Source: Blautia sp. (lineage in GTDB: Bacteria; Bacillota; Clostridia; Lachnospirales; Lachnospiraceae). Taken from it: a stretch of 55,044 nucleotides of DNA. Positions 202-10,549 of this stretch are shown piece by piece. Below the pieces are notes generated by a model, which saw nothing but the letters and a program-made list of their open reading frames with translations, was not told the origin of the DNA and did no database searches. The DNA lies in contig JAMPAC010000008.1 in assembly GCA_023667395.1 (NCBI GenBank), positions 1-55,044 on the forward strand, read 5' to 3'. Positions within the stretch are counted from its first letter, which is position 1. Every line of letters starts with the position of its first letter. The translations under genes were made by a program, and so were the position numbers.

Positions 202-230
202 TTGACAAAGCCCATACCGGATGCTATAGT
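202..230 (+). promoter_or_regulatory. Promoter of the RNA-repair genes
   Basis: TTGACA (202-207), a 17-base spacer and TATAGT (225-230), with a TG one base upstream of the -10 box (extended -10). This near-consensus promoter places transcription start near 237, about 330 bases before the RNA ligase start codon, so a long untranslated leader is predicted. Confidence 0.7.
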
Positions 231-565
231 AAGAGACGGTAAAAGAAACCGGATTGTGAAAGGAGTTCCCCATGTAATGCCATATTCCGACAAATGAATA
301 TAGAAAATATCACAGACACTGGCGTCAGAAGATGGCAGACAGTGGCTGAAGTTTTGTATATATAAAATTGGAATATCAGAGCAGCATGGAGTTTCTCCAA
401 ATATAAATAGAAAATGATGTACCGCCGGCGGCAGGTTTTGCTGGCAGGCGAGGTATTTTGTTTGTGTACGCTGTGGAAGATATTCTTTCGCAGTTTTTTT
501 GTTGCATTGAAGTGAAGAGAGCGGAACAAATTGCTGTAACCAGCAATTGAATAGGGGGATTGTAT
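231..565 (+). other. Long leader of the RNA-repair genes
   Basis: About 330 bases between the promoter and the ligase ATG. It holds a good ribosome binding site (AAGGAG, 260-265) followed by ATG-TAA (272-277), a start codon directly followed by a stop. An overlapping ATG at 277 gives a six-codon frame (MPYSDK) ending at TGA 295-297. The 3' end of the leader is the first copy of the hairpin repeat. No longer coding frame on the + strand was convincing. Its length suggests post-transcriptional control, but that is inference. Confidence 0.4.
504..553 (+). repeat. Leader hairpin repeat, copy 1
   Basis: The segment contains GAGAGCGGAACAAATTGCTG, then a four-base loop and CAGCAATTGAAT. The hairpin is AATTGCTG (529-536) paired with CAGCAATT (541-548). 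It ends just before the ribosome binding site (GGGGGA, 554-559) of the RNA ligase gene. The same unit recurs at 1359-1405 and 1513-1560, and a diverged relative precedes glgB. Confidence 0.7.
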
Positions 566-1354
566 ATGGAACAGATTATTAAATATCCGAGGACCAGGCA
601 TCTGGAGGGTTCCAGGGAGCAGCTGGGTGACGAGGATCTGAAATGTGTAAAACTAGAGGAAATACAGGGAAAGTACTTAGTCCTGGAAGAAAAAGTGGAC
701 GGCGCAAACTGTGGCATCAGCTTTGGCAGGGATGGGAAAATGTATCTGCAGAGCCGCGGGCATTTCCTGAACGGCGGCTACGGGGAGCGTCAGTTTGACC
801 TGTTCAAACTCTGGGCGGGCTGCTTTGAAGACAGGCTGCGCCAGCTGTTGGGAGACAGGTATGTGATGTATGGCGAATGGCTGTATGCGAAGCATACGGT
901 GTTTTATGATCGGCTGCCACATTATTTTATGGAATTTGATATTTTTGACAAAGAGGAAAGACGTTTCTTCTCAACCCGTAAGCGCAGGGAGTTTTTGCAG
1001 GGAGCGCCTTTTATACGGTCTGTCAGGGTGTTGGCGGAAGGAGAATGTGAGACCTTAGGCCACATCGGACAATGGATAGGCCCCAGCCTGTTCATCTCAA
1101 AGGAGCCGGAAAAAAGCTTCCGCGCACAATGCCAAAAGAGCGGGGTGGAGCCGGAACTTGCAATCCGACAGACAGACCTGACAGGGATCATGGAAGGGGT
1201 TTATATCAAGGTGGAAGACGGTGATTATGTGACCGACCGCCTGAAATTTGTCAGAGGGTCTTTTCTCAACACCATTCTGGATTCAGAGAGCCACTGGGTA
1301 AACCGGCCGATCATAGCCAACTGCCTGGCGGACGGGATCGATCTGTTTGGATGA
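566..1354 (+). CDS. RNA ligase family protein (ATP-dependent)
   Basis: A 262-residue nucleotidyltransferase of the RNA ligase family, predicted to seal 5'-phosphate and 3'-OH RNA ends through a lysyl-AMP intermediate. Motif I is EKVDGAN, with the adenylated lysine at about residue 43. An SRGH motif follows near 70. The motif III region is MEFDIFD, motif IV is EGVYIK and motif V is RLKFVR close to the C-terminus, so the set is complete and in order. Size suits a bare nucleotidyltransferase domain without a large accessory domain. The ATG at 566 is preferred over the TTG at 560 because GGGGGA sits six bases upstream of it. The HD-kinase gene 218 bases downstream on the same strand supplies the complementary end-healing activities, which supports an RNA-repair role. 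RNA rather than DNA specificity is inferred from family resemblance. Confidence 0.85.
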   Translation: MEQIIKYPRTRHLEGSREQLGDEDLKCVKLEEIQGKYLVLEEKVDGANCGISFGRDGKMYLQSRGHFLNGGYGERQFDLFKLWAGCFEDRLRQLLGDRYVMYGEWLYAKHTVFYDRLPHYFMEFDIFDKEERRFFSTRKRREFLQGAPFIRSVRVLAEGECETLGHIGQWIGPSLFISKEPEKSFRAQCQKSGVEPELAIRQTDLTGIMEGVYIKVEDGDYVTDRLKFVRGSFLNTILDSESHWVNRPIIANCLADGIDLFG

Positions 1355-1358
1355 GGGG

Positions 1359-1405
1359 CTGAAGTGCAGAGAGCGGAACAAATTGCTGTAAACAGCAATT
1401 GAATG
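1359..1405 (+). repeat. Leader hairpin repeat, copy 2
   Basis: Starts four bases after the ligase stop. It carries AGAGCGGAACAAATTGCTG, loop TAAA and CAGCAATTGAAT, with stem 1381-1388 / 1393-1400. Nearly identical to copy 3, 154 bases downstream. A 47-codon frame without a ribosome binding site opens at its end (ATG 1403) and stops inside copy 3 (TAA 1544-1546). Confidence 0.7.
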
Positions 1406-1512
1406 AAGAAAAAACAGTCTCGGAACGGGAGCACAATGTGCCAAAGGACGGCACATGGAAGGAATTTCCGGCTGCGAATTATGCAGATGGAAATTTCTTC
1501 CCCGCCAAGGGT

Positions 1513-1560
1513 GCTGAAGTGCAGAGACCGGAACAAATTGCTGTAAACAGCAATTGAATA
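1513..1560 (+). repeat. Leader hairpin repeat, copy 3
   Basis: Differs from copy 2 by one base in the 5' part (GAGACCGG against GAGAGCGG) and has the same hairpin and TAAA loop. It stops just before the ribosome binding site AAAGGTGA of the HD-kinase gene, the same placement as copy 1 before the ligase gene. Confidence 0.7.
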
Positions 1561-1572
1561 AAAGGTGATTTT

Positions 1573-2694
1573 ATGGCAGGAGGAATACTTGATGGGATTC
1601 GGGAAAATAACTTTTCTTTTGACTGGCTTGCCAGCTATTATCCGGGACTGGCCGCGTTAAAAAATGTTCCGCAGAACCCGGAATATCATGGGGAGGGGGA
1701 TGTCTACCGCCATACGGAAATGGTGTGCGGGAAACTGATAACACTCCCGCAGTGGCAGGAGGCCGGAAAGGAAGAACAGGAAATCCTGTTTTTGGCGGCA
1801 GCTTTCCATGATATCGGGAAAGCAGTCTGCACGAAGCAGGAGGACGGGAAGTGGATATCGCCCAAACATACCATGGTCGGGGAAAAGATGTTCCGCAGGA
1901 TGGCGTACAAGGAAGCGGAACAGTTCGGGCTGACTTTTGAGCAACGGGAAACGGTGGCTAAGCTGATCCGGTATCACGGGCTGCCCGTCTGGTTCTGGAC
2001 GAAACAAAGGCCGGAGCCGGATCTGCTGAAGGCGGCGGAAAGCATCCCGCTGCGGCTCCTGTACCTGCTCTCAAAAGCGGATACGCAGGGCAGGATGGAA
2101 AAGGAACCCGGACATATGGAAGAAAACGTGGAACTGTTTGCGGATTTTGCGCAAGAGGTTGGAGTATGGGAGAAGCCCTTTGCGTTTGCAAACCCATATA
2201 CGAAATATCAGTATTTTCATAAAGAGGGACTGTGGCATAAGGCGGAATTATATGATGACACATCGTTTGACGTGATTTTAATGTCAGGGCTGCCCCTGGC
2301 AGGGAAAGACAGCTGGATCGAGAAAAACGGCGCAGATATGCCCGTGGTTTCGCTGGATGCGATCCGGGAGGAATTGGGAGCATCCCCGGCCGAAGGTTCC
2401 GGCAAGGTGGTTCAGGCTGCCAAGGAGCAGGCGAGGATTTATCTGCGGCGGAAAGAGCCATTTATCTGGAATGCCACAAACATCATCCGGGAAACCAGGC
2501 AGAAGCTGGTAGACCTGTTTGCCGGATATGGCGCCCGGGTACATATTCTGTATCTGGAAGCGCCATACCAGGAACTGCTTGCCAGAAATCGGAAAAGGGC
2601 GCGTCATATCCCGGAACCCGTACTGGAGGAGATGATCCAAAAACTGGAGATTCCGGCGCCCTGGGAGGCATATGAAGTGCGGTATGAAATCTAA
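1573..2694 (+). CDS. HD-domain phosphoesterase / polynucleotide 5'-kinase (HD-Pnk type)
   Basis: A 373-residue two-domain protein. Residues about 1-230 are an HD phosphohydrolase: H47, the H79-D80 pair in FHDIGK, H99, H135 and D170 in SKAD. Residues about 232-373 are a P-loop kinase: GLPLAGKDS at 239-247, a likely catalytic aspartate in SLDAIRE (D262), a WNATN segment, and arginine-rich RNRKRAR typical of the lid of polynucleotide kinases. This order matches the described bacterial HD-Pnk enzymes (for example Runella slithyformis), in which the HD part removes 2',3' phosphate ends and the kinase phosphorylates 5'-OH ends. Together with the upstream ligase it would repair RNA cut to 2',3'-phosphate and 5'-OH ends. 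The start follows AAAGGTGA. The stop overlaps the convergent gene by four bases. Substrate is inferred. Confidence 0.85.
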
Positions 2695-4388
2695 CAGGGG
2701 CCTTTCCCGAACCGGACTTCACAGTCTTTCCGGTAAAAAGAGATTCCATAGCAGTCGATCTTCCGATATCCTTCCGCGCGCAGCTCCTCTGCATATTTTT
2801 GGTCATATATCTGCTGCAATGCCCTTTCCGCGTCGGCTTCCAGGTCGTCAATATTTCCGGAAACTTTCAGTTCCAGGATAAATGACCTGCCCCGGAGGGA
2901 AGGGCTTTTTACCATGATATCAGACCGTCCGCTGCCTGATTCGCGGTTGGATTTTACCAGGTAATTCTCGCTCTGACTCAGGATACCGGCAAGGAAACCA
3001 TGGTAGAAATTTTCCGCGCTGTCGTAGAAACTGATGGTGGGAAAAAGCTGCTGATTCAGGATCTCTCCCATCTTTTCGGCGTTTCCATCCTCCATTGCGC
3101 GGTAAAGATCCCGAAAATCCTGTTTTTCTATTCTCTTGCGGAACCAGCCCAGAATGGTATTCTGGTAAATGGTCTTGACCTCCGTATTGGGGATTTTCAC
3201 CTGCAGGAAGATGGAGGATTCTTTGAAATATTCGGATTTCTTCGTCAGGTATCCGGTGAAATAAAGGAAATTCCACAGGTTTTCACCCTTGTCGCGCATA
3301 TCCTCATAAGTGATTTCTTCGTGCACCTGTATATCCAGAGTCCCGCCGTTTAAGAGCGTCTCGATCTGTCCTTTCGTCTCCCTGTCGGCTTCTGCGATCA
3401 TATCCTTTATGATGTCATTGGAACTGGTGTTGATCCAGTATGGGCGGGGAAAAGCGTTGATGTCTGAATATAAGTCATATAAAAATTTGATAACACTCCA
3501 GGGGTTATAAACGTCGGCGTTTCCAAATAGATATCCATCGTACCATTCTTTCATGGTAGGAAAACGCTGTTCTGCTTTATAGTAGGCCATTGCCTGTTGT
3601 ACTTCCGGTTCTGTAAAGCCGAAATGTTCACTGTACCTTTGATCCAGCACAGAAATAATATTTAAATGATTCAATCCGGTAAAAATGCTCTCCTTTGAAA
3701 TCCTCAGACATCCAGTGATGACAGCAAACTGCAGGCAATCGTTGGTTTTCAGCGCAGATTCAAACAACGAACGGATAAAGTCAACCATTTCCGTGTAAAA
3801 ACCCTTGAAATATGAATTTTCCAGCGGCACATCATATTCGTCTATCAAAATAATGGTTTTATTTCCGGTTACCTGATAAAGGCACTGACTCAGGAATTTA
3901 AGCGAACCGGAGTAATCGTCATACTCTCCCTTCCCGGAGGCGATCCGCTGAAAGAGATTTTTACTGTCCGTGTTGATCTGATCACTTTCCAGCACATATT
4001 CATGCCTTCTGAATTCATCTGCAATCTCGGTCTTCAGCTTGCCATACGCGGACTCAAAGCTGCGCTGCTTCGCGGATTTCAAAGTCAGGTTGATCACGGG
4101 GTACATTCCCATCTGCCGAACATACTCTTCCCCGGCTGTCATGATCTTTAAGCCCTGGAACAGTTCCCGGTTCCGGGCATTTTTTTCCGCATCCATGGTA
4201 TCTTCAAAAAAGTATCGGAGCATGCTGAGGTTCAGTGTTTTGCCGAAACGCCTGGGGCGGGTGAAGAGATTGACCTTACCCTTTAAATCCAGCAGTTCTT
4301 TAATGAACATTGTTTTGTCCACATAGTAATAATCGTTTTTGATAACATCTTCAAAATTATCCACACCGATAGGCAGCGCTTTTTTCAT
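2691..4388 (-). CDS. AAA ATPase-like protein with C-terminal PD-(D/E)XK domain (DUF1703 type)
   Basis: A 565-residue protein of a family abundant in gut bacteria. The N-terminal AAA-ATPase-like domain opens with [12 protein letters not shown] and YYVDKT. It has a Walker A variant RPRRFGKT at 44-51 and Walker B in ILIDEYD. The C-terminal part carries a PD-(D/E)XK nuclease-like signature: SDIMV followed by FILELKVS, then a region of alternating acidic and basic residues (the DUF1703/PDDEXK_9 pattern). The cellular role of the family is not established; nuclease or mobile-element functions have been proposed. The ATG follows GGAGGTGTAATC. The gene is convergent with the HD-kinase gene and has its own promoter. 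It appears full length. Confidence 0.85.
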
Positions 4389-9754: not shown

Positions 9755-10549
9755 CTACCCCCAATAATGCAGGATCAGCATGGTGGCTCCCAGCACCGTC
9801 AGGATCGCGCCCGTCGCCAGCCCCACGATCCGGTTGTTCACCCTGTTGGCAAACTGGGCGGAAACGATGGAGGCGGCGGTAGCCACTGTCATGCAGATCG
9901 CCAGCACGTCCCACCGTTCCAAGGCGATGGAGGGATCGATCATGATATGGCTGACGGAAGCGATCAGGGCGGTAAAGGTCATGATGAAAGTGCTGGTGCC
10001 CACAGCAGGCTTCCGGTCCATGCCCAGGAAAGCGGTGAACACCACCAGCATCATCATCCCGCCGCCGGAGCCCACAAAACCAGTGCCGAAGCCTATAGTC
10101 AGGCCGAAAAACAGGGAGATGGCCACAGCTTTCCAGTCAAGTCCCGCGCCCTTTTGCACCGCCTGTTTCCGCTGGGTATCCGGTTTGATAAGGAACCGGA
10201 TGCCGATAAAGAAAGTCAGGAACAGGGAAAAGCTGCCCAGCACCACATTTCCCGCCGACCAGGCGGCAAAACTGCCCGCGATGCACATTCCGACGATGCA
10301 GGTCAGCATGATCCAGCCGCGTTTCAGGTCAATGTTCTTGTGCCGGATGTAGATTGCCGTGGTAACGGCGGAGCTCAGGATGTCGGAGGCCAGGGCGATG
10401 GCCGTGGCGTGGTAGGCGCCTGTTTCCCCGGCGAAAGACGGGCACAGCACGATCAGGATGGGCACCATCACCGTGGCGGCGGATAACCCTGCCAGCCCGG
10501 TGCCGACACCTGCGCTCAACGCAGCAATAACATACCAGAAATATTCCAT
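9755..10549 (-). CDS. TauE/SafE (TSUP) family permease
   Basis: A 264-residue protein with about eight hydrophobic segments. It has the glycine-rich start of the TSUP family (SAGVGTGLAGLSAATVMVP) and a matching glycine-rich segment in the second half (GFGTGFVGSGGGMMMLVV), reflecting the internal duplication. Members move small sulfur compounds or other organic anions across the cytoplasmic membrane; the substrate cannot be told from sequence. Ribosome binding site AAGGAGG lies before the ATG. It is convergent with the BlaR1-like gene and divergent from the PfkB gene, and appears to be a single-gene unit with its own promoter. Confidence 0.9.
   Translation of the reverse strand: MEYFWYVIAALSAGVGTGLAGLSAATVMVPILIVLCPSFAGETGAYHATAIALASDILSSAVTTAIYIRHKNIDLKRGWIMLTCIVGMCIAGSFAAWSAGNVVLGSFSLFLTFFIGIRFLIKPDTQRKQAVQKGAGLDWKAVAISLFFGLTIGFGTGFVGSGGGMMMLVVFTAFLGMDRKPAVGTSTFIMTFTALIASVSHIMIDPSIALERWDVLAICMTVATAASIVSAQFANRVNNRIVGLATGAILTVLGATMLILHYWG

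Follow-up and report, generated by a model that had tools for sequence, protein, structure and literature searches.

A conserved start-stop leader RNA ahead of an RNA ligase and HD-Pnk cassette in Blautia and its relatives, a candidate ribosome-sensing attenuator

RNA-repair systems have reportedly been surveyed by Burroughs and Aravind, and the HD-Pnk of Runella slithyformis is said, by Munir and Shuman, to join an N-terminal HD phosphoesterase to a C-terminal kinase and often to be encoded beside a ligase gene. The gene pair considered here, an RNA ligase followed by an HD-Pnk, is a cassette of this known kind and lies with its leader at positions 202 to 2,694 of contig JAMPAC010000008.1 (55,044 nt; assembly GCA_023667395.1) from Blautia sp., the whole of which is called the window below. 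Our main subject is the leader, a structured RNA in which a Shine-Dalgarno (SD) sequence precedes an AUG codon immediately followed by UAA, and which may act as a ribosome-sensing switch on the cassette. In Deinococcus radiodurans, DRB0098 likewise carries an HD domain and then a polynucleotide kinase domain and is encoded in an operon with the ATP-using ligase-superfamily protein DRB0100, and its kinase activity has been demonstrated on DNA (PMC1997131; this and the other papers cited by accession were available in part). That operon differs in having the macro-like DRB0099 in between and in being induced by irradiation, and the available passages of the paper make no mention of a start-stop leader. 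The Pnkp1-Rnl-Hen1 system (PMC4411300) shares its three-part logic of healing, sealing and methyltransferase with six cassettes of our collection that have a methyltransferase gene upstream, but its end-healing protein is a different one, and the methyltransferase here is Hen1-like or generic.

On the regulatory side, the toiL upstream open reading frame (ORF) of the E. coli topAI-yjhQ operon is a short leader frame that responds to ribosomes stalling on its start codon or at other sites by refolding the leader; unlike the frame described here it is multi-codon, acts on translation and Rho rather than on an intrinsic terminator, and belongs to a toxin-antitoxin operon (PMC12121999). In the hflXr/rli80 attenuator of Listeria, ribosome stalling swaps the terminator and antiterminator of a ribosome-rescue gene, the differences being a 14-codon peptide with an RLR motif and responsiveness to drugs (PMC6310831). 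Sites of the start-stop type are mentioned for E. coli and C. jejuni in PMC11955535.

The leader of the window appears to hold a promoter, an SD-bearing short frame and a terminator ahead of the first gene, which are attenuator features (Table 1). Position 202, where the first-pass annotation began the cassette, is noncoding and is the first base of the TTGACA box, so the annotated span takes in the leader. Three promoter-like sites were found in the region against 2.5 expected, the site at 202-230 being the best, and its core is also visible in the sister locus L039. Relatives of the cassette were taken from genome contigs, with 572 confirmed among at least 594 listed stretches, and the best 80 were kept as loci. 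An SD followed by ATGTAA occurs upstream of the ligase in 28 of the 50 loci of the Bacillota set (those with at least 300 nt upstream of the ligase, several titled just 'uncultured bacterium'), while 100 dinucleotide shuffles gave a mean of 1.02 and a maximum of 5; none of the 30 remaining loci (other phyla, viral contigs and one further Bacillota, L102) has it. A control on gene-upstream regions gave 40/605, which overstates the background because it includes the ligase and its neighbours. The distance from start-stop to ligase ranges from 114 nt upward. The SD is held at similar spacing, as GGAGG in Lachnospiraceae and AGGAA in Clostridium leaders, although the spacer sequence has wholly changed. 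Two more start-stop leaders were found (L011/L269 and L263), and in L078 a second, partial ligase ORF is preceded by the same start-stop leader sequence.

The leader of the window folds 4.6 standard deviations below its shuffles (z -4.6), and comparison among relatives bears out three helices. P1 joins the nucleotides that follow the start-stop to a more distal stretch of the leader (CTATATTCTGA with TCAGAATATAG in one instance), and the helix is kept by wholly different sequences in L054, L076 (ATCGTATCAGAGTTT with AAACTCTGATACGAT) and L081 (GTTTATAAG with CTTATAAAC). In P0 the spacer and AUG pair with a CAU and the complement of the spacer: CCCATGT with GCATGGG in Lachnospiraceae, and AATTATTATG with CATAATAATT in Clostridium, with ATTATTATG and CATAATAAT as compensatory partners, so that between the clades CCCC:GGGG has become TTATT:AATAA. 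P0 reaches 14-15 pairs, SD included, in L050 and L075. Independently of any alignment, in all 24 leaders left of 28 after a redundancy filter the segment from -8 to +21 pairs with its own downstream region at a stability above the shuffle mean (mean z -2.6, Stouffer -12.9), ten of them at no more than 3 in 300 shuffles. In A7, an alignment of 12 leaders of the Lachnospiraceae type from which the P0-P1-P2 structure was itself derived, 96.7% of the P0, P1 and P2 cells are paired against 32-39% in slid versions, and four pairs, all in P2, are changed on both sides, which 0 of 500 shuffles reach.

A covariance model, R2, was built from A7 and run over the family with Infernal at stricter filters, eight candidates being scored per genome. 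It recovers L263 (96 bits, outside the training set), L011 (60 bits) and the short leaders described below (54-95 bits), and weakly finds L070, L054, L057 and L076 (25-38 bits). Over 397 family genomes, strong matches (E below 1e-10) fall in four, each directly ahead of a ligase and HD-Pnk; the remaining, weak matches come from these sites read on the opposite strand, apart from two elsewhere (E 0.006-0.009), taken as noise. Rfam 15 has no match at the leader of the window up to E 5, and none above gathering score in the leaders of seven relatives. A class-wide pattern search gave 1 match in 391 genomes, from which nothing is concluded, as the pattern misses the window's own leader. Viral spread of the leader was considered and rejected: two exact GGAGGNNCCCCATGTAAT matches in IMG/VR come without the cassette and without an R2 match. 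As far as these searches reach, the leader thus appears to be an RNA of conserved structure that occurs ahead of this cassette and nowhere else, and comparative evidence supports both its fold and its association with the cassette well.

How the fold might control the terminator T2 was followed by computed folding. A ribosome stopped at a start codon has its edge at +16 to +18 (PMC12121999) and would therefore cover the 5' strands of P0 and P1; it was simulated by keeping nucleotides -20 to +16, around the AUG, out of any pairing. The set comprised 24 of 30 leaders, omitting L039 as a near copy of the window and L043, L044, L045, L047 and L097, which have no T2 by the pattern used. Free leaders form T2 with a probability of at least 0.8 in 23 of the 24. 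With the ribosome footprint blocked, predicted T2 falls to 0.25 or less in 14/24, as against 1/24 (L085) for a control block of equal length inside the leader; when T2 was swapped in from another leader it collapsed in 26 of 96 cases, many of which exchanged T2 between related leaders. In 11 of the 14 collapsing leaders the 5' arm of T2 re-pairs, by eye, near the 3' strands of P1 and P0 (at +95..+110 in L041, for example), and in many leaders the T2 5' arm and loop resemble, again by eye, the flank of the start-stop. The five short leaders omitted from the set have another geometry: the 3' strand of their P1 stops 7-14 nt short of the ligase start, on the first bases of the ligase SD.

Both genes that the first-pass annotation had placed in a two-gene cassette are where it put them. 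The ligase begins at ATG 566, 6 nt inside a TTG-started ORF (560-1354), and matches PF09414 RNA_ligase over residues 37-228 (5.6e-33; 114.9 bits, cut-off 27). The nucleotidyltransferase motifs first read by eye hold up in the family: K43-x-D45-G46-x-N48, R64-G65, E104, E123, E210-G211, K215 and K227 are invariant in all 30 aligned ligases, the window's included. Its AlphaFold model (mean predicted local distance difference test score, pLDDT, 89.1) has as nearest folds TbREL1, NgrRnl and T4 Rnl2, with DNA ligases ranked lower; template-modelling (TM) scores to the three of about 0.5, and the absence of a clear second domain in its 262 residues, are the outcome of a check against the Rnl2/Rnl5 clade. 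A sequence profile of the ligase finds weak matches in the PDB, the best at E 0.047. As a separate observation, the ligase of L010, from the same contig as L050, has a C-terminal extension built of repeated PTAGEPDQEIPFS-like units.

The HD-Pnk carries PF01966 HD in its N-terminal half (4.5e-8, residues 66-138) and PF13671 AAA_33 in its C-terminal half (4e-22, residues 234-361), in agreement with the earlier reading of a phosphoesterase and a kinase in one chain. H47, H79-D80, H99, D170, K245, D262, R265, R309 and R342, among them the HD metal-site residues and the P-loop lysine, are identical in 49 of 49 aligned sequences including the window's, and H135 is kept in 43. The residue after a P-loop lysine is usually S or T. 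In the GxxxxGKD of this kinase (residues 239-246, window 2287-2310), 46 of the 49 sequences have D at this place and 3 have N, so that this is a family trait. The AlphaFold model has a mean pLDDT of 96.0, and profile searches of solved structures liken the C-terminal half to archaeal PSTK, T4 Pnk and the polynucleotide kinase of Clostridium thermocellum; for the HD half they point to the HD portion of a tRNA-processing enzyme of the poly(A)-polymerase type. The bacterial Pnkp model TIGR04075 is not reached (23.3 bits, cut-off 750). Tests of family, conservation and fold support the view that the HD-Pnk probably heals and the ligase probably seals: the former would remove 2',3'-cyclic or 3'-phosphate and phosphorylate 5'-OH ends, and the latter would join them with ATP. 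The cassette might serve against toxin nucleases, as the first-pass annotation supposed.

Pairing of the two genes in relatives, whose lack would have told against the cassette, is the rule: in 74 of the 80 best loci a ligase ORF lies on the same strand no more than 500 nt upstream of the HD-Pnk. In two it lies elsewhere in the locus (L059, L101) and in four there is none (L083, L113, and L094 and L104 at contig edges). The ligase profile matches weakly (E 4e-7 to 1e-4) in six of the 74, which are all Bacteroidota; the two of these that were scanned carry PF09414. Runella is kin to these six, and the weak match of their ligases to our profile marks a difference from the present cassette. A family sample had the full HD-Pnk in 12 of 299 genomes, 11 of them paired and the twelfth unpaired within the 16 kb inspected. 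A genus sample had it in 6 of 61, the window's own genome included, with four of the five others paired; in the fifth the HD-Pnk begins 73 bases from the contig end, leaving the ligase region out of view. Since few genomes hold an HD-Pnk yet nearly all that do are paired, the cassette is patchy but tightly coupled. The window's genome also has two RtcB genes.

Taking leader and enzymes together, we consider it somewhat probable that the leader is a ribosome-sensing transcription attenuator of an RNA break-repair operon. The nascent leader would first expose SD1 and the AUG-UAA. If no ribosome stays, this region would pair with the downstream strand once that is made, forming P0 and P1 and hiding SD1; T2 would then fold, and transcription would stop ahead of the ligase. 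A ribosome held on the AUG-UAA would cover the 5' strands of P0 and P1, and the freed 3' strand would pair with the 5' arm and loop of T2 as an antiterminator, so that the operon is transcribed. The exchange between T2 and antiterminator is a prediction of the folding, and that the AUG-UAA is translated and that its occupation means ON are what we infer from the architecture. The signal could be ribosomes that load but do not clear, through blocked termination or recycling, damage to the ribosomes or an excess of free ones. In the five short leaders, where the P1 3' strand meets the ligase SD, the same sensor would act on translation. More tentatively, we put forward a start-stop attenuator in the full sense: a peptide-free AUG-UAA frame would read whether a loaded ribosome can terminate and leave, jammed ribosomes would switch the RNA-sealing operon on, through the terminator in long leaders and the ligase SD in short ones, and damage to ribosomes or tRNA would thereby induce its own repair. 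To our knowledge no start-stop attenuator of a bacterial operon has been described before, and we found no precedent in the open-licence literature, which does not establish its absence in print.

A number of observations weigh against attenuation by the ribosome. The window's own leader is a weak case of a terminator that a ribosome is predicted to break: its T2 goes from 0.86 free to 0.21 blocked, but also to 0.31 with the control block, so the effect is not specific, and its P1 duplex alone is no better than shuffles (91/300). In L085 the control block lowers T2 too (0.16). When blocked, T2 stays at 0.74 or more in nine of the 24 leaders (L040, L077, L096, L046, L057, L076, L072, L263 and L011) and drops just to 0.50 in L084; in the sister leader L039 it moves the opposite way, from 0.57 to 0.90, as it does in L011, from 0.59 to 0.98. 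Among the collapsing leaders, the T2 arm of L054, L070 and L081 re-pairs elsewhere than with the P1/P0 3' strand. Within A7, variation in P0 and P1 is confined to one side of a pair, so that the compensatory evidence for these two helices is the comparison between clades, free of alignment. R2 misses the Clostridium leaders L072, L073, L075, L078, L084 and L085 as well as L081 (E up to 1), and its strong matches include one independent genome (G173, with L011), because G000 and G157 supplied training sequences and G432 carries the leader of training sequence L100. By the SD+ATGTAA test 22 of the 50 Bacillota-set loci have no start-stop, and since leaders were chosen by that test, the conservation of SD, AUG and UAA is partly a product of selection. 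L066-L068 read AGGAGG..AAGTAA, with AAG replacing AUG and a P1-like pairing by eye, and other Bacillota loci, several adjoining htpG among them, have a promoter-like stretch and no leader; the leader is thus a trait of a clade and does not go everywhere with the cassette. As to the enzymes, mutation of the HD motif in the Deinococcus homologue left 3'-phosphatase activity unlowered in an assay with contaminating activity, and the function of that HD domain was accordingly left open (PMC1997131).

Some of these points would sit well with an RNA that is bound by a ligand or protein instead of being read by a ribosome. The AUGUAA would then be an untranslated sequence or structure motif, and a ligand, a protein or an RNA end would set P0/P1 against the antiterminator. 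Such a riboswitch-like leader could tolerate the AAG of L066-L068, which keep SD and UAA; the pairing of the AUG itself in P0 could account for its conservation, and the platform varies between terminator and SD as it does in riboswitches. We nevertheless think it unlikely, though not negligibly so, given an SD kept at similar spacing in Lachnospiraceae and Clostridium across a changed spacer, and the lack of any Rfam family matching the leader. Stability of T2 in nine leaders with the start-stop blocked raises the further thought that a real structure acts constitutively, as a small RNA or a stabilizing element at the 5' end, with no regulated readthrough. To this we give very little credence: terminator and SD occlusion, two separate platforms, hang on the same P1, and many leaders show, by eye, a likeness between the start-stop flank and the 5' arm and loop of T2.

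If attenuation by a ribosome is accepted, its sign could still be reversed, the loss of initiating ribosomes (through a cut initiator tRNA or a damaged 16S 3' end) inducing the operon and an occupied AUG-UAA keeping it off. This would suit an RNA-repair operon that answers failing initiation, and L039 and L011 shift that way on blocking; folding of 14 of the 24 leaders, however, gives termination when free and antitermination when the AUG-UAA is covered, and the five short leaders, in which P1 overlaps the ligase SD, would also be OFF once P1 forms, which makes this polarity improbable. It is at least as doubtful that the enzymes serve DNA strand-break repair and not RNA repair. DRB0098-DRB0100 has been described as a putative DNA-repair operon whose expression rises on irradiation, and its DRB0098 can phosphorylate a 5'-OH end of DNA (PMC1997131), but the present ligase falls in PF09414 with RNA ligases as its best folds and DNA ligases lower, and in 6 of the 80 loci, all cyanobacterial, the cassette is followed by a protein family whose L092 member has MJ1316, 2'-5' RNA ligase and poly(A)-polymerase domains; we therefore see DNA repair as a poor account of the pair. 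Induction of an RNA-repair cassette by an occupied start-stop frame is the reading that we retain.

Table 1. Positions of the leader elements, genes and repeats of the cassette in the window
Feature	Position	Strand	Details
Putative promoter	202..230	+	TTGACA 202-207, 17-nt spacer, TATAGT 225-230, extended -10; 11/12 matches
SD1 and start-stop frame	261..277	+	AGGAG 261-265; ATG 272-274, TAA 275-277
Helix P0	270..389	+	CCATGT 270-275 with GCATGG 384-389; start codon hidden
Helix P1	282..376	+	ATATTCCGA 282-290 with TTGGAATAT 368-376
Hairpin P2	313..356	+	313-321 with 340-348, then short U-rich tract
Predicted antiterminator strand	370..385	+	Common to 3' strands of P1 and P0
Putative intrinsic terminator T2	470..500	+	11-pair hairpin GCTGTGGAAGATATTCTTTCGCAG and T7
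BOX-like structured repeat, 3' part	503..555	+	Ends 10 nt ahead of ligase ATG
ATP-dependent RNA ligase	566..1354	+	262 aa; nucleotidyltransferase domain, no clear second domain
BOX-like repeat, 3' part	1355..1407	+	
BOX-like structured repeat, full unit	1413..1562	+	Ends 10 nt ahead of HD-Pnk ATG
HD-Pnk	1573..2694	+	373 aa; N-terminal HD phosphoesterase, C-terminal P-loop 5'-OH polynucleotide kinase

Ligase and HD-Pnk are each preceded by the 3' end of a structured repeat of 105-150 nt, often in tandem, which is BOX-like and not tied to the cassette. The window's own genome has at least 147 copies of it (150 candidates scored). Of 61 genomes searched, 37 of which belong to the genus, 10 carry the repeat, all of them from that genus and one of them the own genome; among family genomes from other genera it occurs in 1 of 148. 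It has no Rfam match, and its model finds none in 16 other cassette loci of the family and genus. Ends were examined in 30 of the 147 own-genome copies and in 30 from four other genomes, some ends being imprecise near contig edges. In the own genome all 21 terminal copies have, no more than 32 nt from their 3' end, the start codon of an ORF of at least 80 codons, against 3/21 at the mirrored end, and in 16 of the 21 an SD-like string lies in between; in the four other species the figures are 22/27 and 4/27. Random same-strand positions pass the same test in 475 of 1050 cases, since it accepts any start codon in frame, which makes the mirrored end the better control. The terminal hairpin of the repeat covaries, with 88% paired against 77% in shuffles (0/1000 reaching it), two false anchors among the 26 distinct sequences having been left in. 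In the sister locus L039 the gap between ligase and HD-Pnk holds further tandem units and a masked stretch. That the three copies at 503-1562 are an RNA substrate or repair-specific signal was rejected, given the at least 147 genomic copies, of which those read precede unrelated genes, and given four genomes of the genus (G299, G312, G317, G324) that carry the repeat without an HD-Pnk match. A Y1/REP-type transposase that might move the repeat was not found in the own genome, which is 94% complete. Pneumococcal BOX elements (PMC3049150), compared by description and not by sequence, are likewise modular, tandem, structured, multicopy and intergenic; the nearness of a start codon to the 3' end distinguishes the repeats here.

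Several neighbours of the cassette were noted in passing. The family that follows it in six cyanobacterial loci (L092, L099, L103, L104, L114, L118) is represented, as the single member scanned, by the 1020-aa protein at 11173-14232 of L092, directly downstream of the HD-Pnk, which has an exo/endo-phosphatase domain besides those named above, its 2'-5' domain being RNA ligase-like. Immediately upstream of the ligase, a conserved S-adenosylmethionine (SAM) methyltransferase is encoded in six loci (L107, L115, L106, L101, L019, L020), which come from Clostridia, a Chloroflexi and a Hyphomicrobiales metagenome-assembled genome and two other genomes; L016 is the same contig as L115, and the methyltransferase match of L109 is weak and partial. 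Hen1 as third partner was considered for this gene, but bacterial Hen1 structures match it about as well as unrelated methyltransferases do, and for that reason it is not filed as Hen1. Eight loci without the start-stop leader (L051, L052, L053, L055, L058, L059, L061, L064) share a family, HSP90/HtpG by its L059 member, a few kb upstream of the cassette. In L041 a GA-cis RNA match (RF02987, 46.4 bits, above gathering score) falls at 10248-10332, within the HD-Pnk reading frame. In the window itself, a group II intron remnant (RF02001, 1.2e-12) occupies 56-152, at the left end of the contig and just ahead of the promoter, and bases 1-195 have no alignment to L039. At the other end a convergent gene on the minus strand (2691-4388; AAA-ATPase-like and PD-(D/E)XK, PF09820 and PF08011) overlaps the stop of the HD-Pnk by 4 bp.

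The association of a conserved leader with this cassette directs attention to the behaviour of ribosomes as a possible inducer of RNA-repair operons of this kind, and knowing under which conditions T2 opens would identify the damage that the repair enzymes serve. If the proposal is right, an AUG-stop frame that makes no peptide can serve as a sensor in bacterial gene control.

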